NCBI GenBank assembly: GCA_030613145.1
Contig: JAUWMM010000019.1
Coordinates: 1-12,037, forward strand
Direction: 5' to 3'
From: Desulfobacterales bacterium
Lineage (GTDB): Bacteria; Desulfobacterota; Desulfobacteria; Desulfobacterales; C00003060
DNA length: 12,037 nt
Of the stretch, positions 3,391-12,037 are shown in pieces; within the stretch, counting starts at the first letter, position 1, and each line of letters opens with the position of its first letter. The notes below the pieces were generated by a model that saw only the letters and a program-made list of their open reading frames with translations, was not told where the DNA came from and ran no database searches. The translations under genes were made by a program, and so were the position numbers.

Positions 3391-3837
3391 ATAAAAAAGA
3401 CAACGTTTTTAGCCGTATTCCTGGCTCTTGCGGTCTTTGTTGTGCCAGCTCATGCTACACCACCTGATGCATGTCAGAAGAACTTGGGAAGCGTGTATGA
3501 TAACCGGAATCAGCAGGTCATTGTGACTGGCACACAGTTCTTAGGGATGTCCTCTGTTGAGCCTTGTACTGTAATGATTGTTCCCCCTGATAAGAAGTTC
3601 GTACTCACTGATATAATTGCAACCCCATTTTCTTCTGATAACTTCGGCATCTTGTTCCTAGAGAACAAGATGCCGAGAGCTATTATGAGTTTTTCCGCTA
3701 AGCAGCATGTTCAAGACAGACTTCATCTTAAATCAGGAATTACTTTCGCCCCTGGCTCCAGTGTTGCGCTGCAACGTAAACGTACTGAAGGGGGAGGATG
3801 TGTCACCTTTTCCGGTTACCTGATTGACGCAAAATAA
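3391..3837 (+). CDS. Small secreted protein of unknown function, ATA start
   Basis: With the ATA codon at 3391 read as initiator the product is 148 residues. Residues 1-22 form a textbook signal peptide: K-K at 2-3, a hydrophobic core L-A-V-F-L-A-L-A-V-F-V-V, and P-A-H-A as the signal peptidase site. The next standard start, GTG at 3442, would remove nearly the whole signal peptide and has no ribosome binding site. The mature part (about 126 residues) holds three cysteines (in D-A-C-Q-K, E-P-C-T-V and G-G-C-V-T) and alternating hydrophobic strands ending V-T-F-S-G-Y-L-I. This fits a small beta-rich exported domain. I do not recognise a family. It is a lone plus-strand gene, convergent with the cluster at 3893. 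The ATA is either a real non-canonical start, a recent mutation of ATG, or a base error. Confidence 0.75.
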   Translation: MKKTTFLAVFLALAVFVVPAHATPPDACQKNLGSVYDNRNQQVIVTGTQFLGMSSVEPCTVMIVPPDKKFVLTDIIATPFSSDNFGILFLENKMPRAIMSFSAKQHVQDRLHLKSGITFAPGSSVALQRKRTEGGGCVTFSGYLIDAK

Positions 3838-3892: not shown

Positions 3893-4822
3893 CTATATTC
3901 GTCGGTCTCTACGCAAAATGCGCTGAAGCTCACGGTGCGTGAAATAGGGATCATCATTTCTCAGATATGGGAGCAAGATCTTTTTTTTGCGGAGTAAATC
4001 CCTTGAAATCTCCGCAAAGATCTCGTCAGGCTCATAAAGGGCGGCCTTAGTGATGTGTTGGCCAAATGGGTTGATGATCTCGCTGCCGCCCCAGAATTGG
4101 TATGTGGTCGACTCATCGCAAAGTGGATGAGAACTTTGGGTTGAGGCTGCCCGGTTGCTCTCAGAGCTTGAAATCGTCCGCCTCTCTTCTTGCTGTTCTT
4201 CTCCCACACGGTTGGCACATATGTTGTAAATGCCAAAGATGCGGGAATAAAATGTATTGATAATTTGCCAGCTTTCAATATTACTGAACTCATCCCCCAT
4301 GGAACCCTGTGATGAGCTGAATATAGTGATAAAGACATCCGCCTTCTGGCACACACCAAGATAAGGCAAAGAAGGGTGCCACAGGTCATTGCAGATAAAA
4401 ACAGCAGTATTGAACTCGCGGAGTTTGAAGACAGGAATCTGCTTTCCAGGGGAGAAGTATTTTCGTTCCTCAAAAACACCATAATTAGGCAGGTTTAGTT
4501 TACGGTAGGCAAACAGGATTTCGCCGTCCACGGCCACGAGGGCGGAGTTGTAGAAATTCATGGACAGGGATTCTTCAATAAAACCTACCACAGCTGCCGT
4601 TCCTTTTGTGGCGGATGCCAATTGTTTGATTTCCCGAGAATCCAGCCTGAGGGCCACTTCGTGATACCTTTCGCCGACAAAATATCCTGTTAGGGCCAGT
4701 TCGGGAAATACGATCAGCTGAGCTCCCTTTGCTCGACCCTCACGTATTTTTGTGATGACATCTTCAAGATTCGCCTTGAGATCCAATAAGACGGGACTTG
4801 TCTGATAAACGGCAACTTTCAT
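3893..4822 (-). CDS. Carbon-nitrogen hydrolase (nitrilase superfamily amidase)
   Basis: A 309-residue member of the nitrilase superfamily, which cleaves C-N bonds of amides, N-carbamoyl compounds or nitriles. The catalytic triad is visible: E41 in F-P-E-L-A-L-T-G-Y, K108 in Y-R-K-L-N-L-P-N-Y, and C144 in F-I-C-N-D-L-W-H-P. The F-W-G-G-S-E-I-I-N-P-F-G block near 243-254 closes the core. Between R-V-G-E (205-208) and Y-Q-F-W-G-G-S it carries about 32 extra residues (209-240), rich in Ser, Glu, Gln and Arg, where relatives usually run on directly. The frame is intact. It is the last gene of the minus-strand cluster, 83 bases after the MttB-like gene 1. It may release ammonia or an amine for, or from, the amide made by the synthetase-like protein upstream. 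The substrate is unknown. Confidence 0.9.
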   Translation of the reverse strand: MKVAVYQTSPVLLDLKANLEDVITKIREGRAKGAQLIVFPELALTGYFVGERYHEVALRLDSREIKQLASATKGTAAVVGFIEESLSMNFYNSALVAVDGEILFAYRKLNLPNYGVFEERKYFSPGKQIPVFKLREFNTAVFICNDLWHPSLPYLGVCQKADVFITIFSSSQGSMGDEFSNIESWQIINTFYSRIFGIYNICANRVGEEQQEERRTISSSESNRAASTQSSHPLCDESTTYQFWGGSEIINPFGQHITKAALYEPDEIFAEISRDLLRKKKILLPYLRNDDPYFTHRELQRILRRDRRI

Positions 4823-4841
4823 TGTATCATAGCTCCAATAC

Positions 4842-4877
4842 TCTCCCTCTCACTTGATGGGAGAAGGGAGGAGGGAA
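4842..4877. repeat. Intergenic inverted repeat between cluster genes
   Basis: CTCCCTCTC and GGAGAAGGGAG flank an ACTTGATG loop, giving an imperfect hairpin in the 83-base gap before the carbon-nitrogen hydrolase gene. Its look (CTCCCTCTC-TTGATG-GAGAGGGAG) matches a kind of short intergenic repeat dispersed in many proteobacterial genomes. No T-tract follows on the minus strand, so it is unlikely to terminate the operon fully; it could stabilise or process the mRNA. Confidence 0.5.
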
Positions 4878-4905
4878 AATAAGATTTTTTACGAAACTAT
4901 CTAAG

Positions 4906-6084
4906 TTAATATATAAAGGATTTGCCCGTATTTTTCAAGGTATGATCGTCTTGCATGTAATTCGCCCGGCTGCCATTTCGCTTGATTGCTTCAAGGCCCT
5001 CCGGGTCATAGGATTCAAGTTCATATTCGGGGGCTTGGTCAGATTCGGTCTCTCTACACAGGGCTATATGCCTTTCGAGCTTGGCAATGGAAAAAGAGAT
5101 GAGTTCTTTTAAGAAACCAAAAGCATGTCGCATTTGATGAAACCCGTATTTTTTCATCAAGGCATAACCTTTGATGGCATCCTCCTCTGCCTTCCTGTTC
5201 GGTTTTCCCTCGCTGGTGGTACACGCGGTCTGGATAGAGGGGATGCCCAACTTATTGTTAACCTTTTCCGTGAGGAGATTGGCTATGTTGTGGGCGACTA
5301 AACCTAAATCCACAGCATAATTTTTCCGGATGTTGGCAATGGACGGAAGCCCTGCGTGGACGACCATAAGGCCCGGATTCACAATCTGGGTCAAGGTAAT
5401 TCCGAATAAGGCTTCGGCGTGAGTGAGTGTCAAGAGACCAGACATGCAATAAGGACCGGAAAGGCCTGCCATGGGCATGGTTGAAACATAGATGGGGATC
5501 CCTTTGCGAACGCATGAAAGAAAGGGATCGATCATGCTTTCAATTAAATTTAATGGGCTGTTAATAATGGAGAACTGGACGGTCAAATTTCCTCTGGTGT
5601 CATGGACTCGCTGGGCCCGAGCAATGCCCGCCTCAGTCACGGCAGCTACATAGACCGGTTTGTGGCAATGCTCTACAATCGTATCTATAACCTTGACCTC
5701 TTGATTTCTAATCAAAACCCCTCTTGCCATGAATTGAACAACGTCGGCTTCATTGACGGTTTTGGCTATCTTCACAAGATCTTCAATGGTAGGCTCTACT
5801 AGTTCCCCTGTCTGATCATCGTAAACAAATGGCGCCGTTCCCCCAACCCCGAAGGCGTTCTCCGGGATCCAATACTGGTCACGTTTCGGCGCCGTGCCAA
5901 GGGCCTGTTCCACCAAGGGGGCCAGCACATGAAGGTGTCCCGAGGTTTCGTCAAAGGCGGCAAGACCGGTATCCTCAAAAATCTGTCTTACTTCCAAAGA
6001 GGGGCACTTTACGCCGACCTCTTCTAAGACCCGTAGAGCGTCACGGTGAATTTTTTCCAAAAGACCATTGTCTTCAATATTCAT
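4906..6084 (-). CDS. MttB-superfamily methyltransferase-like protein 1, non-pyrrolysine
   Basis: A 392-residue member of the trimethylamine methyltransferase (MttB, COG5598) superfamily, whose characterised members move a methyl group from a quaternary or tertiary amine to a corrinoid protein. The N-terminal L-R-V-L-E-E-V-G-V (17-25), the V-S-T-M-P-M-A-G-L-S-G-P block (200-210), T-H-A-E (221-224) and N-P-G (236-238) are family marks. The region where MttB carries pyrrolysine corresponds to about 286-304 here (T-A-C-T-T-S-E-G-K) and has no amber codon, as in MtgB-like enzymes. The protein ends just after D-H-T-L-K-N (380-385), so the usual C-terminal 90 or so residues are absent. AGGA precedes the ATG by 8 bases, and the gene starts 9 bases after the metallo-hydrolase stop. 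It is paralogous to 10111-11325. No corrinoid protein is encoded here, so a non-corrinoid role is possible. Confidence 0.88.
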   Translation of the reverse strand: MNIEDNGLLEKIHRDALRVLEEVGVKCPSLEVRQIFEDTGLAAFDETSGHLHVLAPLVEQALGTAPKRDQYWIPENAFGVGGTAPFVYDDQTGELVEPTIEDLVKIAKTVNEADVVQFMARGVLIRNQEVKVIDTIVEHCHKPVYVAAVTEAGIARAQRVHDTRGNLTVQFSIINSPLNLIESMIDPFLSCVRKGIPIYVSTMPMAGLSGPYCMSGLLTLTHAEALFGITLTQIVNPGLMVVHAGLPSIANIRKNYAVDLGLVAHNIANLLTEKVNNKLGIPSIQTACTTSEGKPNRKAEEDAIKGYALMKKYGFHQMRHAFGFLKELISFSIAKLERHIALCRETESDQAPEYELESYDPEGLEAIKRNGSRANYMQDDHTLKNTGKSFIY

Positions 6085-6093
6085 GTTTTTTTC

Positions 6094-6942
6094 CTACACA
6101 CTCACACGCATTCCATCGTAGGCAAAACGAATGTTGCTAAATTCCTTTTCTAGCGCCACATAGTCATCGTGACTCCTGTTCCAGTACTCCTCGAGATGGA
6201 CGAACAGGATCTGGCCGGCCTCAATCCTGTCAGCCAGGGCCAAGGTCTCTTCAAAGGTGTAGAGGGTTGTCCTGGAGATATGATCTTTGCCATAAGTGAA
6301 ATCGTGCTTGAGTCCCTCTTCAAAGATGCCAGGCTGGATCACCAGCAGATCCGCACTTTGGACCTCTGCCCTGTCCTCAGGAAACGGTTTGATGTCACAG
6401 GGTGCATAGACCATCCTTCGGCCTTCCTTTTCAAACACGTATATGAATGACGACTGAGAACCACGGTCCACCGGAACACCCGTGATTTTGATTTTTCCGA
6501 TCTCTATTGTGCCCCGAAAAGGGGTTCGTTGAACAAAGCCCTGCTTTTCGTAGTAGTCGATGGCCGGACCGTAAATGGTTCGAATATTTCTCAGACGGTT
6601 GTCCAACTGTTCGGGCAAGATGAGCCGGATATGTTTGTCCGAGTAAGCCTCCCAGGTGCGAAAATCAAGGGTAATATGTTCCACAACCCGAAGCCCTTCC
6701 ACGTGGTCCGGGTCCAGGTGAGTTAAGAGCAAGTAATCGATGCGCTCTATTCGGGATCGGTTTAGCTGCGAGGCTATCTCTGCGGGTGTGTCGATCAGCA
6801 GATTTTCGTCATGGATGAATGCAGATGGGCCTGTTCTTTCATATGGCACCCCTTTTCTCCTTGCCTCTTCACATACATGGCATCTACAGAGTGGCTTGGG
6901 TATGACCATGCATCCCCCTGATCCGAGAACAGTCAGTTCCAT
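6094..6942 (-). CDS. Metallo-beta-lactamase-fold hydrolase, PhnP/PqqB-like
   Basis: A 282-residue MBL-fold protein. The start (M-E-L-T-V-L-G-S-G-G), the C-x-C-x2-C cluster (C19, C21, C24) and L-L-I-D-T-P (48-53) are like PhnP, a cyclic phosphodiesterase, and PqqB. The main metal motif reads H75-L-D-P-D79-H80: the second histidine of the usual HxHxDH is an aspartate (D77). Later ligand candidates are the Asp in Y-A-P-C-D-I-K and H249 in F-V-H-L-E-E-Y-W. The Cys cluster probably binds a structural zinc. Its ATG follows the TAA of the FAD gene with no gap (TAA-ATG), so the two are probably translationally coupled. No signal peptide is seen, so it is cytoplasmic. Substrate unknown; hydrolysis of a phosphodiester or ester intermediate would fit the fold. 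Confidence 0.88.
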   Translation of the reverse strand: MELTVLGSGGCMVIPKPLCRCHVCEEARRKGVPYERTGPSAFIHDENLLIDTPAEIASQLNRSRIERIDYLLLTHLDPDHVEGLRVVEHITLDFRTWEAYSDKHIRLILPEQLDNRLRNIRTIYGPAIDYYEKQGFVQRTPFRGTIEIGKIKITGVPVDRGSQSSFIYVFEKEGRRMVYAPCDIKPFPEDRAEVQSADLLVIQPGIFEEGLKHDFTYGKDHISRTTLYTFEETLALADRIEAGQILFVHLEEYWNRSHDDYVALEKEFSNIRFAYDGMRVSV

Positions 6943-8280
6943 TTAGCTCCATGGAAAGGGACTACTAGAAACAGGGTGTAACTCTCCTCTGGCATAGCGA
7001 TCAAAGCGGAAAAGTTTGAGCAAGGCCTGCTCCTCTCCCAAAATCTCTTTGGCCACAAGCTGGCCTACTCCGATCATCTTGTAGCCATGATTGGAGTCGA
7101 GGATCATGTAGCAATTCTGTTTCATCGTGTCGAAGATAGGAAAATTGTCAGGCGTAAAGGCGCCTATGCCTCCGGATGGTTCGTTCCTGAATAAATGATA
7201 CTTGTCCTCGTATCTTTTCTGGCAATGGGCAAGGGCGGAGGTCCACATATGAGCAAATTCGGGACCCACAATGAAATCAGGAGAATCAATGCCATAAGGG
7301 TCCACCGCCACTTCCTCTCTGTCCACGATATATGGCATTGAACCGCCCTGAATACCTTTGAAATGGAAGTCAGGCTTGTAGTAGATCCCCCACAGCTTGT
7401 CGGTAATGAGTGATCCGTCCTCGCTGGAATAGAGGGGCGCATCGCTATCCACATGAATCACCGGAGGCATTTTCCCCGCATTGTTCATCCCAAGTTCCGT
7501 TGGGACGCCAAGGGTCCCCTCCTCGAGGCACCAGTAGGTCCACATCTTGACCCCCTTGTGGATCTTACCGTCTCGCCCTTTGATATCGATCTTGTTGGGA
7601 AGCCCCAGCATGTCCCAGAAGCTTTTGGCCCATGGGCCGGCACCAATGATTACCCAGTCACATTCAATGTCACCTCTAGAGGTTTCAACAGCAGTCACGG
7701 CGTTTTTGCTGGTCTTGAATCCTGTGACCTTTACACCGGTCAGAATCCGAACGCCCTCTGCTTCTGCCTTGTCTGCAAGCCTGTAAAGAGACCTTGTATT
7801 GTGTGCGTAACCTCCATTCTTTTCATGTAAGATGGAGGTGATATTTTTGGCTTGCCAGTCATGAAAGATCTTCTCCTTCATGTATTTAAGACATTCCTTT
7901 TCTCCTTCAACAAATGCTGATTCATACCCGATGTTTTGCTGACGTGCAAAGATTTCTGCCACATCCGCATGCATGGATTCTGGAGATATCTGCATGTAGC
8001 CCACAGGATAGTAACCATACCCTTCGGCATCTTCTTCCCAGAGACGGACACTGTGGGCCATGAGCTCCTGCATGGCAGGCTGATAGTAATTATTGCGGAT
8101 GACGCCGCAGGCAATCCCGGATGCTCCAGCTCCAATCGCTCCCTTGTCTATCACCAGAATATCTTGTGGTGAACCGGCGGTCCCCTTGTTCTTCAGTGCC
8201 ACGGCCAAGTGGTATGCGGTGCTCAAACCGTGGATCCCGGCCCCAACAATGATGTACTTGTACTTTGTCGGAAATGACAT
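6943..8280 (-). CDS. FAD-dependent amine oxidoreductase (DAO family)
   Basis: A 445-residue flavoprotein of the D-amino acid oxidase/sarcosine oxidase-beta family. These oxidise secondary or tertiary amines (sarcosine, dimethylglycine, glycine, proline) with FAD. The dinucleotide-binding motif is V-G-A-G-I-H-G (12-18), the ribose-binding acid is D45 in L-V-I-D-K, and G-A-S-G-I-A-C-G-V-I-R follows. W-V-I-I-G-A-G-P-W-A is the second FAD-contacting block, and the C-terminal S-G-G-I-G-A-F-T-P-D-N-F-P-I-F-D and N-H-G-Y-K-M-I-G-V-G complete the fold. AAAGGA lies 8 bases before the ATG. The gene follows the synthetase-like gene after a 328-base gap holding a large palindrome, so it may have its own promoter or RNA processing site. 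Next to MttB-like genes, an N-methyl amine is a natural guess for its substrate. Confidence 0.9.
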   Translation of the reverse strand: MSFPTKYKYIIVGAGIHGLSTAYHLAVALKNKGTAGSPQDILVIDKGAIGAGASGIACGVIRNNYYQPAMQELMAHSVRLWEEDAEGYGYYPVGYMQISPESMHADVAEIFARQQNIGYESAFVEGEKECLKYMKEKIFHDWQAKNITSILHEKNGGYAHNTRSLYRLADKAEAEGVRILTGVKVTGFKTSKNAVTAVETSRGDIECDWVIIGAGPWAKSFWDMLGLPNKIDIKGRDGKIHKGVKMWTYWCLEEGTLGVPTELGMNNAGKMPPVIHVDSDAPLYSSEDGSLITDKLWGIYYKPDFHFKGIQGGSMPYIVDREEVAVDPYGIDSPDFIVGPEFAHMWTSALAHCQKRYEDKYHLFRNEPSGGIGAFTPDNFPIFDTMKQNCYMILDSNHGYKMIGVGQLVAKEILGEEQALLKLFRFDRYARGELHPVSSSPFPWS

Positions 8281-8608
8281 ACGATAAGTCCTTTCACTGT
8301 ATCAATTTATCCTATTAAAAAAAGCGTAACACTTTACGTGTATGACAAAGACCCGTTTTGCGAACGATATTGAGCAATTTTGGAAAAAGATTCATGAAGA
8401 GCGGAACGTCAAAATCGCAAACTGTTTGATCCGCCGCAGGCTTGCCGTAGGCGGAGAGTTTTTGCGATTTAGTGGAGCGATTCATGAATCCCAAAATGGC
8501 TCACAGGAGTGAGCAAAATCAGGCCTTTTTCAAAAAGCTAAACTCTTACAAAAATGCGAGCCTAACGAGCATACAGGTAATCCTTTCAAATAACCAAAAT
8601 ATCACCCC
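8281..8608. other. Intra-cluster gap dominated by a palindromic element
   Basis: This 328-base gap is the only long interruption between co-directional cluster genes. Most of it is the nested inverted repeat at 8371-8514. A further CTTTTT-C-AAAAAG hairpin is at 8525-8537. I see no coding frame and no convincing promoter for the FAD gene in 8281-8370. Confidence 0.6.
8371..8514. repeat. Nested imperfect palindrome, MITE- or REP-like
   Basis: The outer arms are TGAGCAATTTTGG...GATTCATGAA (8371-8398) and its reverse complement within 8476-8503, differing by one base and a 4-5-base indel. The inner arms are AAAATCGCAAACT (8411-8423) and AGTTTTTGCGATTT (8457-8470). The centre has TCCGCC (8430-8435) against GGCGGA (8450-8455). 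The whole would fold into one long cruciform or hairpin about 130 bases long. A separate perfect GCTCAC-AGGA-GTGAGC hairpin (8499-8514) overlaps the right end. There is no reading frame, so this is a non-autonomous element or a structured RNA rather than a gene. Confidence 0.7.
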
Positions 8609-10090
8609 TTACTTAAATGGGTCCCACCTAACAGTCTGTTTCTCGTAGGACGGTGGGAAGAGCTGTAAGAACTCATCGTAGTAATAGAGCTCCTTGAAGG
8701 AAGCAAACGGTAGGCCATATGCTGCCTTGGATCTTTGCTTGATCTCTTCTGGGTCAATGCATTCGGATACCAATTCGTCCATCACGTCATCCATCCCTGT
8801 ACCCATGGCAAATCTGAGTTTTTCACGATTGGCGATCTTTTCGGGCAGCATATCCCTGAATGCCTCTCGGAGGATGAACTTTTCTACCTGGTTTTCACCG
8901 TAGATCTTCCAACTCATGGGTATCTTTTGACTAAAAGCCACCACTTTCGTGTCCAAGTATGGTGTTCGGTAGACGACGCCATTGGCCATCCATGCGCGGT
9001 CAAGCCTTCTCAGGGCTGTATTGTAAGCAATTTCCACCAGCTTTTGGGCAAGGGTTTCTCTTTGCTCCTCACTCTTTACCTTTGGGTTCTTGAGGACCAT
9101 GCGATAACCACCGAACAGCTCATCAGCCCCTTCCCCCACGAGGACCAGGTTGGAATGTTCTTTGACGATTTTGGATACATAGTAATTGGAGAGAATGCCT
9201 GAGATGCAGTCTTCATCAAAGCTCTCCAGATACCATACGGCATCCGACACAAGACCCGTGATGTCTGAATCAGAGATCAAATAAATGTGGTGTTCCAATC
9301 CGAGGTGCTCTGCCATCAATTTTGCGTTTTCCAAATCCGGCCCCGGTTTTCTTTGGACGGCTGCCGTAAACAGCTTGATGTGGGGGTTAAATTCCTTGGC
9401 TATGGTGGCTATAATGGAACTATCCAGGCCCCCGCTCAAGGCAACGGCACCCACGCCTTCCATTCTTTTTTGGACTGCCTCTATCAGAAGCCCTCTTAAC
9501 GCCCTTGCCGTGCCCTGCAGGTCATCAATTTCAGGAATGTCAGGCACAAATGGATCAAACTGTGTCATGCCTTTCTTGCTGCTGTACAGGCACCCTGGAG
9601 GAAGCTCGTTTACATTGAATTTCACATGATCAATCAGCCCCTTCATCTCTGAACTGAAATAAAATACATTGTCGTCCGAGCCAAAAAAGAGCGGTCTGGC
9701 ACCCACGTGATCCCGAGCCAGGATAACTTCCTCATCTTTTTTCACCACAGCACAGGAAAAACTTCCGTCCAGCCGTGAAAAGCATTTTTTATCGTACTTT
9801 TCATAGTATTCCTGGACAAGGTCAAGATCACTCTGACCTTCTGGCCTTTCGTTGTAGAGTTCACCATCAAAGAGGATGTATGGAGGTGCGTCGACCGACG
9901 TACAATGCGTTGTTGTGGGTGTCAGGTTGATTTCGCTGGCACCCAGGGCGCCGCGATCATCCGTTAGCGTCCGGATAATGGTGTTGTCCTCACCGCGATG
10001 CCGCATGAGCTTCAACATCTTGCCTACTTGTCTTGTGCAATTGGCCTCGATTCTTCCATGTTGCGATATAATTCCTGCTATACTTGCCAT
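8609..10090 (-). CDS. Asparagine-synthetase-like amide ligase lacking the glutaminase cysteine
   Basis: A 493-residue protein with the two-domain AsnB layout. The C-terminal ATP-pyrophosphatase domain looks intact: S-G-G-L-D-S-S (219-225), G-E-G-A-D-E-L-F-G-G-Y (319-329) and Y-R-T-P-Y-L-D. This implies adenylation of a carboxylate followed by amide formation. The N-terminal Ntn domain keeps its outline (R-H-R-G-E-D at 30-35, A-R-D-H-V-G-A-R-P-L at 125-134) but starts M-A-S-I-A-G-I instead of M-C-G-I-A-G-I. The nucleophilic Cys is gone. N-G-E-I-Y-N is D-G-E-L-Y-N (75-80), and the arginine of the R-L-S-I block is missing. The start is certain: AGGAGG sits 6 bases before the ATG. It should therefore use free ammonia or an amine, or close a ring, as beta-lactam synthetase-type relatives do. 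It is 20 bases after MttB-like gene 2, in the same operon. Confidence 0.92.
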   Translation of the reverse strand: MASIAGIISQHGRIEANCTRQVGKMLKLMRHRGEDNTIIRTLTDDRGALGASEINLTPTTTHCTSVDAPPYILFDGELYNERPEGQSDLDLVQEYYEKYDKKCFSRLDGSFSCAVVKKDEEVILARDHVGARPLFFGSDDNVFYFSSEMKGLIDHVKFNVNELPPGCLYSSKKGMTQFDPFVPDIPEIDDLQGTARALRGLLIEAVQKRMEGVGAVALSGGLDSSIIATIAKEFNPHIKLFTAAVQRKPGPDLENAKLMAEHLGLEHHIYLISDSDITGLVSDAVWYLESFDEDCISGILSNYYVSKIVKEHSNLVLVGEGADELFGGYRMVLKNPKVKSEEQRETLAQKLVEIAYNTALRRLDRAWMANGVVYRTPYLDTKVVAFSQKIPMSWKIYGENQVEKFILREAFRDMLPEKIANREKLRFAMGTGMDDVMDELVSECIDPEEIKQRSKAAYGLPFASFKELYYYDEFLQLFPPSYEKQTVRWDPFK

Positions 10091-10110
10091 TTAATGCCTC
10101 CTATGGTGAC

Positions 10111-11325
10111 TCAAGTAACAAAAATCTTTCCCAGGTTGGCCGTGGTGAGGGGATCTTCCATGTACATGCCCAAACCGATGCGCTTAATAGATTCCATTCC
10201 CCTTTCGTCATATATAGGCACTTCCACCTCAGGGGCATCCTCAGGCGTGACTTCTTCGACGATCCTGATGGTCTTTTCGAGCTTGCCTATAGAGAAATCG
10301 ATAAGGTAGCGGAGAAATGAAAAGGAATGTCTGACCATATGAAATCCGTATTTCAGCCACAAAGCACGGCCCATCTTTGCATCTTCATAGGCCCGCTCTG
10401 TAGGGTGCTCTTCATGCGTGGTCCCTCCGCTTTGAAACGTGGGCATGTCAAGCATGAGGTTCAGATGGCTCATGAGGATGTTCAAGAAGTTGTGACTGAT
10501 CAGGCCGTAGTTCGGATTGTACTCTATCCTCGGATCGGCAATGGTCGGGAACCCTGCATGAATACAGGTTACACCTGGATTGAGCAACTGAGCAGCACAA
10601 ATGCCAAAAAGCACCTCAGCATGTGTCATGGCCAGGACCCCGTTATAACAAAAGGGCGCGCTTATGCCTGCCATGGGCATGGCAGAAATGAAAACCGGCA
10701 GCCCGGCTTTTACTACTTTCACAAAGTGGTCTGAGAAGTTCTCGCTTACCTCCAGTGGAGGACGCGTCAGGCAGAAGACGATCATTATATTCTTTCTCGC
10801 CTCGTGGAGCTCCTTAGCCCTATCGAGGGCAGTATCTGTGGTTACAGCAAAATAGAGTGGCTTGCTGCAATTTTTCGCCATGATGTTCATCTGCTCGACT
10901 TCGTCCTTGAGTTTTATGCCCCTACCCATGCCGGCTACTACCTGGTTTTCCTCGGCAAACTGAGCGATTCGGGCCACGTGTTCAGCCGTTGGAGTCACAC
11001 CGCCTTGACCGGCCTCGTCATCGTAGACATACGGAGCGGTACCCCCAATAAAAAAACTGTTCCTGGGCACAAAAAAATCAGCCACACCAGGAACAGTTCC
11101 GAGGCACTGCTCAACCAACCCGGAGGTCACGAATACGCGGTCCTCGTAAACTATCGCCAAACCGTCTGCCTCAAATTGTCGAAAAACCTTCTGGATTTCC
11201 GGCTGCTTACAGCCAACACCAAGATTTTCCAGAATCCACATGGCGTCTTGATTAACCTGAATGAGCATCTGTACAGCATCTTCACCAAGCAAAGACTTTG
11301 ATTTTTCAACTTGTTCTTTGTTCAA
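10111..11325 (-). CDS. MttB-superfamily methyltransferase-like protein 2, non-pyrrolysine
   Basis: A 404-residue second MttB-like protein. It shares with protein 1 the G-G-T-A-P-Y-V-Y-D-D block (94-103), A-M-P-M-A-G-I-S-A-P (215-224), T-H-A-E (234-237), L-F-G-I, N-P-G (249-251) and a K-Y-G-F-H-x-x-R-H segment. Elsewhere the two differ widely, so the duplication is old. The pyrrolysine-equivalent region is near 299-317 (S-G-G-T-T-H-E-E-H) with no amber codon. The C-terminus is short as in protein 1, and the D-H-T-L of protein 1 is D-P-L-T here, losing the histidine. The start is a TTG, chosen because AGGAG lies 8 bases upstream (11334-11338); the next ATG is 19 codons in and has no such site. 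It is the first gene after the regulated leader, so it probably heads the operon. Confidence 0.87.
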   Translation of the reverse strand: MNKEQVEKSKSLLGEDAVQMLIQVNQDAMWILENLGVGCKQPEIQKVFRQFEADGLAIVYEDRVFVTSGLVEQCLGTVPGVADFFVPRNSFFIGGTAPYVYDDEAGQGGVTPTAEHVARIAQFAEENQVVAGMGRGIKLKDEVEQMNIMAKNCSKPLYFAVTTDTALDRAKELHEARKNIMIVFCLTRPPLEVSENFSDHFVKVVKAGLPVFISAMPMAGISAPFCYNGVLAMTHAEVLFGICAAQLLNPGVTCIHAGFPTIADPRIEYNPNYGLISHNFLNILMSHLNLMLDMPTFQSGGTTHEEHPTERAYEDAKMGRALWLKYGFHMVRHSFSFLRYLIDFSIGKLEKTIRIVEEVTPEDAPEVEVPIYDERGMESIKRIGLGMYMEDPLTTANLGKIFVT

Positions 11326-11626: not shown

Positions 11627-12037
11627 CTATTCCACCTCCAAATCATGGACGTCCAGCATACGGGTAAGCATATTGAGGCCGTGTACGATCTGCTCTATTT
11701 CACTTCTTTGAAGCCTCTGCAGTCCATCCACAATCTTCTGTTGAATTGGGGGCGGCGCATGTTCAGCGAGCTTGTCACCCGCCGCTGTCAACTCGATGGT
11801 GATCACCCGGCGATCCTGAGACGTCCTCATTCTTCTCACAAGTCCTTTGTGTTCCAAGCGGTCAATGATCCCGGTGACTGTGCTGGAGTTTACCATAATG
11901 TGCCTGGCGATTCGGGAGAGAGGCAAAGGGCCATTCTCATACAGGGCGAGGAGGCAATTGAGTTGGGAGGCGCTGACTTGATACTTTTTGTTCAGTTCCT
12001 TGGTATAGAGTTCTCTTGCCTGGATCAACCTTCGGAT
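11627..12037 (-). CDS. MarR-family transcriptional regulator (partial)
   Basis: A winged-helix MarR regulator whose N-terminus runs off the window; the frame is open to base 12037 (I-R-R-L-I-Q-A-R-E-L). About 136 residues are visible of a usual 145-165. The DNA-binding part is clear: L-N-C-L-L-A-L, the recognition region S-R-I-A-R-H-I-M-V-N-S-S-T-V-T-G-I-I-D-R-L-E and the wing R-T-S-Q-D-R-R-V-I-T-I-E-L-T. The C-terminal helices complete the dimer interface. MarR proteins are dimers that bind palindromes and release on ligand binding. It lies upstream of the cluster on the same strand, with candidate operators in between, so it probably controls the cluster and senses one of its metabolites (inference). 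The TTG at 12028 is an internal Leu codon, not the start. Confidence 0.93.
   Translation of the reverse strand: MRRLIQARELYTKELNKKYQVSASQLNCLLALYENGPLPLSRIARHIMVNSSTVTGIIDRLEHKGLVRRMRTSQDRRVITIELTAAGDKLAEHAPPPIQQKIVDGLQRLQRSEIEQIVHGLNMLTRMLDVHDLEVE

Follow-up and report, generated by a model that had tools for sequence, protein, structure and literature searches.

The 12,037-bp stretch of DNA analysed here (the window) is one entire contig (C40) of a draft Desulfobacterales genome, which has 2.0 Mb and is 65% complete. Its minus strand carries genes for two short MttB-like proteins (MTB1 and MTB2), an AsnB-like ligase (ASN), a flavoprotein (FAD), a metallo-hydrolase (MBL) and a nitrilase-superfamily amidase (NIT), preceded by a MarR-family regulator. 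Judging from sequence comparisons across genomes, it is well supported that these genes form one functional unit dealing with an N-methylated amine or betaine. With a probability of about 0.5, we read this unit as a catabolic operon with which Desulfobacterota, sediment-dwelling relatives of sulfate reducers among them, break down an imported quaternary-ammonium carboxylate; glycine betaine or a closely related compound is the likeliest substrate. The observations new here are the exchange of FAD with a corrinoid module, FAD-type genomes without MttC, a ligase slot that takes two forms of enzyme, and neighbouring genes for an importer, electron transfer flavoprotein (ETF)-like proteins and glycine cleavage.

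Organization and conservation of the operon

The six minus-strand open reading frames (ORFs) described in the earlier note are whole, and profile matches were found to all the families it named. From 5' to 3' the order is MarR (11627..12037; MarR match 1.6e-18), MTB1 (10111..11325, 404 aa with a TTG start; MTTB 6.8e-20), ASN (8609..10090, a predicted ATP-dependent amide ligase; Asn_synthase 3.1e-56), FAD (6943..8280, DAO/sarcosine-oxidase-beta-like; DAO 3.9e-36), MBL (6094..6942, PhnP/PqqB-like; Lactamase_B_2 1.4e-17), MTB2 (4906..6084, the second short MttB-like paralogue, 392 aa; MTTB 2.1e-29) and NIT (3893..4822; CN_hydrolase 2.8e-34). The regulator does lie upstream of MTB1, as had been proposed, with its 5' end lost at the contig end. 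The tight spacing noted earlier holds for MTB1-ASN (20 bp), FAD-MBL (0), MBL-MTB2 (9 bp) and MTB2-NIT (83 bp) and fails between ASN and FAD, which are 328 bp apart; MarR and MTB1 are separated by 301 bp.

One scan of genome contigs gave 49 named loci, whose records are titled Desulfobacterales, Desulfobacteraceae, Syntrophobacteraceae, Deltaproteobacteria or wider and include Desulfonema magnum (L038) and strain NaphS2 (L056). Two loci (L087, L088) were treated as repeats of L062 and L063; in a separate set of nine loci, four (L144, L145, L146 and L150) seem to duplicate L034, L043, L047 and L061. Counts of gene order use only the loci with enough flanking sequence (42, 34, 30, 29, 27 or 14 of the 49). 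Of the 42 loci with 1.5 kb or more downstream, 37 have the ASN slot next after MTB1 and on its strand; MTB2 is present in 29 of the 30 loci that combine the slot with 5.5 kb or more of downstream sequence, and a same-strand MarR gene lies within 6 kb upstream in 21 of 29 loci with the ASN slot and at least 1.5 kb upstream. The complete order from MarR to NIT recurs in three loci (L142, L143 and L149), all of family f121, and the gene set is also found in other families of the phylum. Among 395 genomes drawn evenly over the phylum, 14, counting the window's own, have an MTB2 match at E<=1e-60, a threshold that takes in MTB1. The kept gene order rules out a chance neighbourhood. The earlier note had proposed a search for these families in conserved order and held that a gene order unique to this genome, or MttB-like genes never found with the ligase and flavoprotein elsewhere, would speak against a functional unit; the co-occurrence was found, the order recurs, and neither of those situations applies.

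Exchange of the flavoprotein with corrinoid and sarcosine oxidase genes

FAD (>60% identity) occurs in 24 of the 49 loci and MttC in 10, never together. Among the 30 loci that have the ASN slot and 5.5 kb or more downstream, 17 have FAD, 10 have MttC, none has both and three have neither, one of the three (L068) retaining a 71-residue FAD remnant that is 47% identical. The same pattern is seen in 18 whole genomes with MTB1, ASN and MTB2 (FAD in seven, operon-linked MttC in ten, both in none, neither in G084); G114 was excluded from this set, its operon (L079) being broken by a contig end. Uncorrected for kinship, the probability of no overlap is 2.5e-4 for the 18 genomes and 9.5e-6 for the 30 loci. 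The D. magnum operon has neither gene, and its FAD lies elsewhere in the genome near two ETF-like genes. At E<=1e-30, FAD was found in seven of 146 genomes, every one an operon carrier.

The corrinoid genes, named here from matches to B12-binding, Pterin_bind, Met_synt_B12 and MTTB profiles, with MttC below the NCBIfam cut-offs, take two arrangements: RamA-MttB-MtgA-MttC ahead of MTB1 (e.g. L045) and MttC-MttB behind MTB2 (e.g. L053). Their MttB is of two kinds. In a further type, seen in pure form in nine loci, MTB1 stands with SoxA, in most cases with SoxB and SoxG and in two with SoxD; none of the nine has ASN, and one has MTB2. L059 is mixed, with both ligases, MTB2, MttC, MttB, SoxB and SoxA. 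On the best MTB1 tree, from which the fragments L069, L070 (in two frames), L072 and L073 were excluded, the FAD, corrinoid and sarcosine-oxidase states need seven changes, and the well supported branches, taking one state against the rest, force five changes for FAD, two for corrinoid and four for the sarcosine-oxidase type. FAD gives way in some loci to MttB/MttC, whether or not MtgA and RamA are present, and in a related setting that retains MTB1 to a multi-subunit enzyme of the sarcosine-oxidase type; N-demethylation is therefore the likely common denominator of the operon types, and a demethylation step that can be swapped between operon versions is the best reading of these data.

In a third operon type (L114-L119), a MarR regulator 70-77% identical to that of the window stands at the head of RamA-MttB-MtgA-MttB'-MttC together with genes for a Cys-less AsnB and a methyltransferase-domain protein. 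Corrinoid demethylation genes are thereby linked to an AsnB-like ligase. These loci were fetched by their AsnB match, so no frequency follows from them.

Replacement within the operon is also visible at close range. Between the window and L025, the rate of synonymous substitution (dS) is 1.10 for FAD and 0.07-0.14 for MTB1, ASN, MBL and MTB2; one of the two lineages has therefore probably exchanged its FAD by homologous recombination and retained the other genes. The ratio of nonsynonymous to synonymous substitution (dN/dS) is 0.07-0.20 across the five genes compared.

A giant GlmS-like protein of about 1500-1750 residues, with a class II GATase-like start, a SIS domain and long unmatched parts, is encoded near MTB1 in L062 (14686-19242), L083 (168-4664), L089 (1177-5784) and L082 (1-5237). 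These loci have no ASN, and some have an MmgE/PrpD protein.

MTB1, MTB2 and the search for a corrinoid partner

MTB1 and MTB2 are 43% identical. Both score above the curated cut-off of the MttB superfamily (PF06253) and have the MttB TIM-barrel fold, and both fail the trimethylamine methyltransferase family TIGR02369 (88.7 and 63.7 bits vs an equivalog cut-off of 525). The two had been described as non-pyrrolysine paralogues, and they are: the frames are open without TAG codons, and by profile alignment Pyl334 of MttB corresponds to Thr (T302 in MTB1 and T289 in MTB2). The same alignment places Ile or Val and Leu at the MttB corrinoid-contact positions Thr111 and Gly372. It also led us to drop the GGT motif of MTB1 and MTB2 as a counterpart of the MttB G110-T111 pair.

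We think it improbable that MTB1 and MTB2 are ordinary corrinoid-dependent quaternary-amine methyltransferases that draw in trans on free cobalamin, on an MttC or on some other corrinoid protein. Their fold is consistent with this, as is their top profile, the glycine betaine methyltransferase MtgB (240.8 bits, with MttB at 231). MttC lies within the locus in the 10 loci described above and elsewhere in six of 14 FAD-type genomes (G000, G092, G409, G369, G178 and G146, the window's own genome among them), and the MtgB homologue MV8460 methylates free cob(I)alamin in vitro (PMC6855144). The substitutions at Thr111 and Gly372 argue against it, as do the results of a search for the MttC family TIGR02370 in 30 + 10 genomes, the 14 FAD-type genomes included. 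No MttC-type corrinoid protein was found in seven of the 14 (G008, G011, G018, G020, G464, G324 and G274; 81-98% complete), of which G464 is a single contig at 98% completeness. Where these seven gave any match at all, it was confined to the B12-domain half of the profile and lay in a frame of 134-167 residues. A search for the cap domain PF02607 was negative in five cluster genomes (G008, G011, G018, G020 and G084); G464, G324 and G274 were outside that search. No MTB2 was found in G274. Taking the absences across the seven genomes together, a required MttC partner is unlikely there, each single absence being limited by completeness and by the profile, and in these genomes MTB1 and MTB2 appear to work without an MttC-type corrinoid protein. 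Frames of about 1100 residues in several genomes match only the B12-domain half of TIGR02370; their assignment to MetH was not upheld, as neither G114 nor G094 yielded a PF02607 cap domain.

A more specific proposal, which we offer tentatively and rate as rather unlikely, is that MTB1 and MTB2 together are a corrinoid-free quaternary-amine demethylase. ASN would amidate the betaine carboxylate, the methyl group would pass to a non-corrinoid acceptor, and NIT would restore the carboxylate and free ammonia. The amide would ease removal of the N-methyl group and give the barrel a new handle (H329, R332, H333). If this holds, the MttB superfamily would have, as far as known, its first branch to have given up vitamin B12.

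The ligase slot

The synthetase domain of ASN keeps the SGGLDSS motif. In the window's copy, residue 2 is Ala instead of the Cys seen in Cys-type copies, in line with the earlier description of a ligase without glutaminase activity. It also scores below the NCBIfam asnB cut-off (293.4 vs 499 bits), which Cys-type ASN exceeds (607.6 vs 499 bits). On the tree, the AsnB-like proteins fall into three clades: a short Cys-less form, with Ala (19), Pro (2) or Ser (1) as residue 2 in 22 rows nearly all from these operons; a long Cys-type form, with Cys2 in 17 of 17 rows from the operons; and a third Cys-less form with Ser or Gly at position 2 (11 rows, mainly from another operon type). The slot can differ even between closely related loci, L035 and L037 being 95% identical in MTB1, 94% in MTB2 and 96% in MarR and having a long and a short ligase that share 31% identity. 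The same step can thus apparently run with or without glutaminase activity. Since the slot takes both kinds of ligase, we infer that ammonia is the nucleophile of the ligase step. NIT as a substitute glutaminase for Cys-less ASN was ruled out because it is found with both ASN types.

Both forms also occur in other settings. G063 and G114 have the long form in the operon slot, or at its start, and the short form elsewhere in the genome, and in L122 the Cys-less short form stands beside MttB/MttC without the MTB genes. Short Cys-less and long Cys-type ligases are adjacent in L059 (7131-10238) and L122 (10928-14074).

An alternative, which we consider unlikely, is that the AsnB gene is a plain asparagine synthetase serving nitrogen balance and that the reaction of MTB1 and MTB2 is unrelated to methyl transfer. 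The long-form ASN of the operons shares 72-85% identity with three of the four copies found outside them (the fourth, L124, is excluded from this range), and the operon copies are 71-92% identical among themselves. Some operon genomes, G090, G069 and G081 among them, moreover have the long form as their sole AsnB-like match at E<=1e-25. Against the alternative, the slot neighbours MTB1 in most loci, and the two Cys-less forms make separate clades, although the short one is also found off the operon in G063 and G114, and in L122.

Importer, glycine cleavage genes and direction of the pathway

An importer is encoded near the operon in 12 of 27 loci with wide flanks, and one of the same kind lies beside five of the six loci of the third operon type. 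It has an OpuAC domain and ProV/OsmF-like parts that score under the NCBIfam cut-offs, and it is an ABC transporter of the OpuB/OsmF-like, quaternary-amine type. In G006 the NIT gene adjoins the importer genes. Downstream of the operon of G069, in the same orientation, come MttC, MttB, MtgA, RACo-like, RamA-like, NIT and MarR (33% identical) genes and then, beyond this MarR, GcvT-like, GcvH, GcvPA, GcvPB, LipB and LipA genes; the RACo-like and RamA-like labels were assigned in this analysis. The glycine cleavage genes point to glycine and hence to glycine betaine. The earlier note did not choose between a biosynthetic and a catabolic route; catabolism is indicated by the importer, by the RamA, MtgA and MttC genes and by the glycine cleavage genes of this one genome.

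A biosynthetic operon, in which ASN would be the amide synthetase and the product an amidated N-methyl compound, for instance an osmolyte, is in our view highly unlikely. It would be in keeping with the AsnB-like ligase of the third operon type and with the presence, among the matches, of an AsnB-like NCBIfam family, N-acetylglutaminylglutamine amidotransferase (119.5 bits vs a cut-off of 570). It fits poorly with a transporter that is an importer and not an exporter, with the exchange involving RamA, MtgA and MttC, with the NIT amidase and with the ETF-like and glycine cleavage neighbours.

Proposed pathway and points against it

The flavoprotein scores 125.8 bits against the DAO profile (cut-off 27.9) and 80.9 against soxB (529), and it is probably an ETF-linked dehydrogenase. 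In NIT, E41, K108 and C144, which we take to be the nitrilase Glu-Lys-Cys triad, are invariant in 15 rows, placing the protein in the nitrilase superfamily; among solved structures, the N-terminal part of NAD synthetase entries matches it best. MBL is below the PhnP-type equivalog TIGR03307 (48 vs 272 bits), and all 22 rows have HxDxDH and not the PhnP-type HxHxDH, together with CxCxxC.

In the catabolic reading, the quaternary amine would be bound in the MttB barrel of MTB1 and MTB2, which would perform or prepare the first C-N step with no dedicated corrinoid protein. The ASN slot would supply ATP-driven formation of a carboxamide, later opened by NIT; FAD would oxidise the tertiary and secondary N-methyl groups and pass the electrons to ETF, and the backbone would leave as glycine.

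Several observations weigh against this reading. Docking predicts contacts of MtgB with glycine betaine at Y94, N199, R309, H345 and F353 (PMC6855144), and MTB1 and MTB2 keep one of the five, H345 (H333 and H320), which sets them apart from MtgB. MttC-type proteins are encoded elsewhere in the six FAD-type genomes named above, and D. magnum (G134) has one weaker MttC match. The kinship-corrected test of the FAD/MttC exchange comes down to four independent pairs (starred branches, 47 rows), too few to decide. MBL is present in only 20 of 30 loci with the ASN slot and at least 5.5 kb downstream, and NIT in only six of 14 with the ASN slot and at least 8.5 kb. The tree fails to part the operon Cys-type ASN from copies outside operons, and this ASN is equally close to three of the four outside copies and to other operon copies; its product may therefore be no more than asparagine. 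The glycine cleavage link was seen in one genome only (G069) among the loci examined, and its GcvT-like protein is below the NCBIfam cut-offs. The idea of one unit acting on an N-methylated amine or betaine, put forward earlier, is well supported by kept order, MarR, the importer in part of the loci and the FAD-corrinoid exchange, and is weakened in its assumption of demethylation by the MttB-like proteins, given the seven FAD-type genomes without an MttC-type acceptor and the poor match to the MtgB contacts. The amide that the ligase and amidase were earlier suggested to make and cleave is still a predicted intermediate.

Comparison with known systems

MTB1 and MTB2 share the MttB barrel and the lack of pyrrolysine with MtgB of the MtgB/MtgC/MtgA system of Desulfitobacterium and with MtpB, MtcB, MtyB and MthB, and like MtgB they have a His, at the position of Tyr364. 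They differ from MtgB-type systems in being two short paralogues that end ahead of the C-terminal anchoring helices, in keeping few of the predicted betaine contacts, in the absence of a corrinoid protein, MtgA and RamA from FAD-type loci, and in the added AsnB-like ligase, MBL and NIT. In Eubacterium limosum, the choline kinase MthK acts before MthB in a preparatory ATP step (PMC12155760). The operon resembles this pair in having an ATP-using enzyme beside an MttB-type protein, which could give the substrate a handle, but the enzyme is AsnB-like and not a kinase, and FAD-type loci have no corrinoid protein.

Distant short MttB-like proteins adjoin an APH-family kinase in L097-L099; L098 also has dimethylglycine-dehydrogenase-like proteins, ETF and an Fe-S protein, and L099 a Glu_synthase-domain protein.

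In the N-methylglutamate pathway and the sarcosine and dimethylglycine oxidases, flavin N-demethylation occurs alongside amidotransferase- or amidase-type enzymes. The predicted flavin N-demethylation of the operon, with its ligase and amidase, recalls this make-up; the single-subunit FAD protein and the added MttB-fold proteins set it apart. Asparagine synthetase B is matched by Cys-type ASN, which passes the asnB cut-off, and not by the Cys-less ligase of the window, which stays below it.

No description of this gene set was found in the literature searched, most subscription papers being outside that search, and a limited literature search for homarine degradation as a known match returned nothing relevant. 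The mlp gene clusters (PMC10418091) were rejected as a match, being based on the UroD superfamily, with neither asparagine nor MttB mentioned in the main text.

The known oxygen-independent betaine routes include corrinoid systems, betaine-homocysteine methyltransferase and betaine reduction (PMC12478193). A conserved operon with two MttB-like proteins, in genomes where no corrinoid partner was found, makes a B12-free branch directly testable; such a branch, if real, would add to these routes, and the operon may represent an unrecognised fate of osmolytes in anoxic sediments. The novelty is tempered by betaine-homocysteine methyltransferase, which already demethylates betaine without a corrinoid.

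Other features of the window

The spacer between ASN and FAD (8281..8608) consists mostly of a multi-copy repeat, identified by a repeat search of the draft genome, with 49 full or partial matches there, its own copy counted. The repeat was possibly mobilised by the transposase family represented at 78-1176 of the window. There, perfect 28-bp inverted repeats (78-105 and 1149-1176) bracket a gene resembling a REP-associated tyrosine transposase (119-1144; 56 bits vs a cut-off of 80). A scan for promoters and terminators gave matches not more numerous than in shuffled sequence. A plus-strand ORF of 131 aa (3442-3837) has no Pfam or NCBIfam match. Adjoining the transposase gene, 1214-1960 encodes a class I methyltransferase-domain protein with weak matches to the DVU_1556 and CpaM families.

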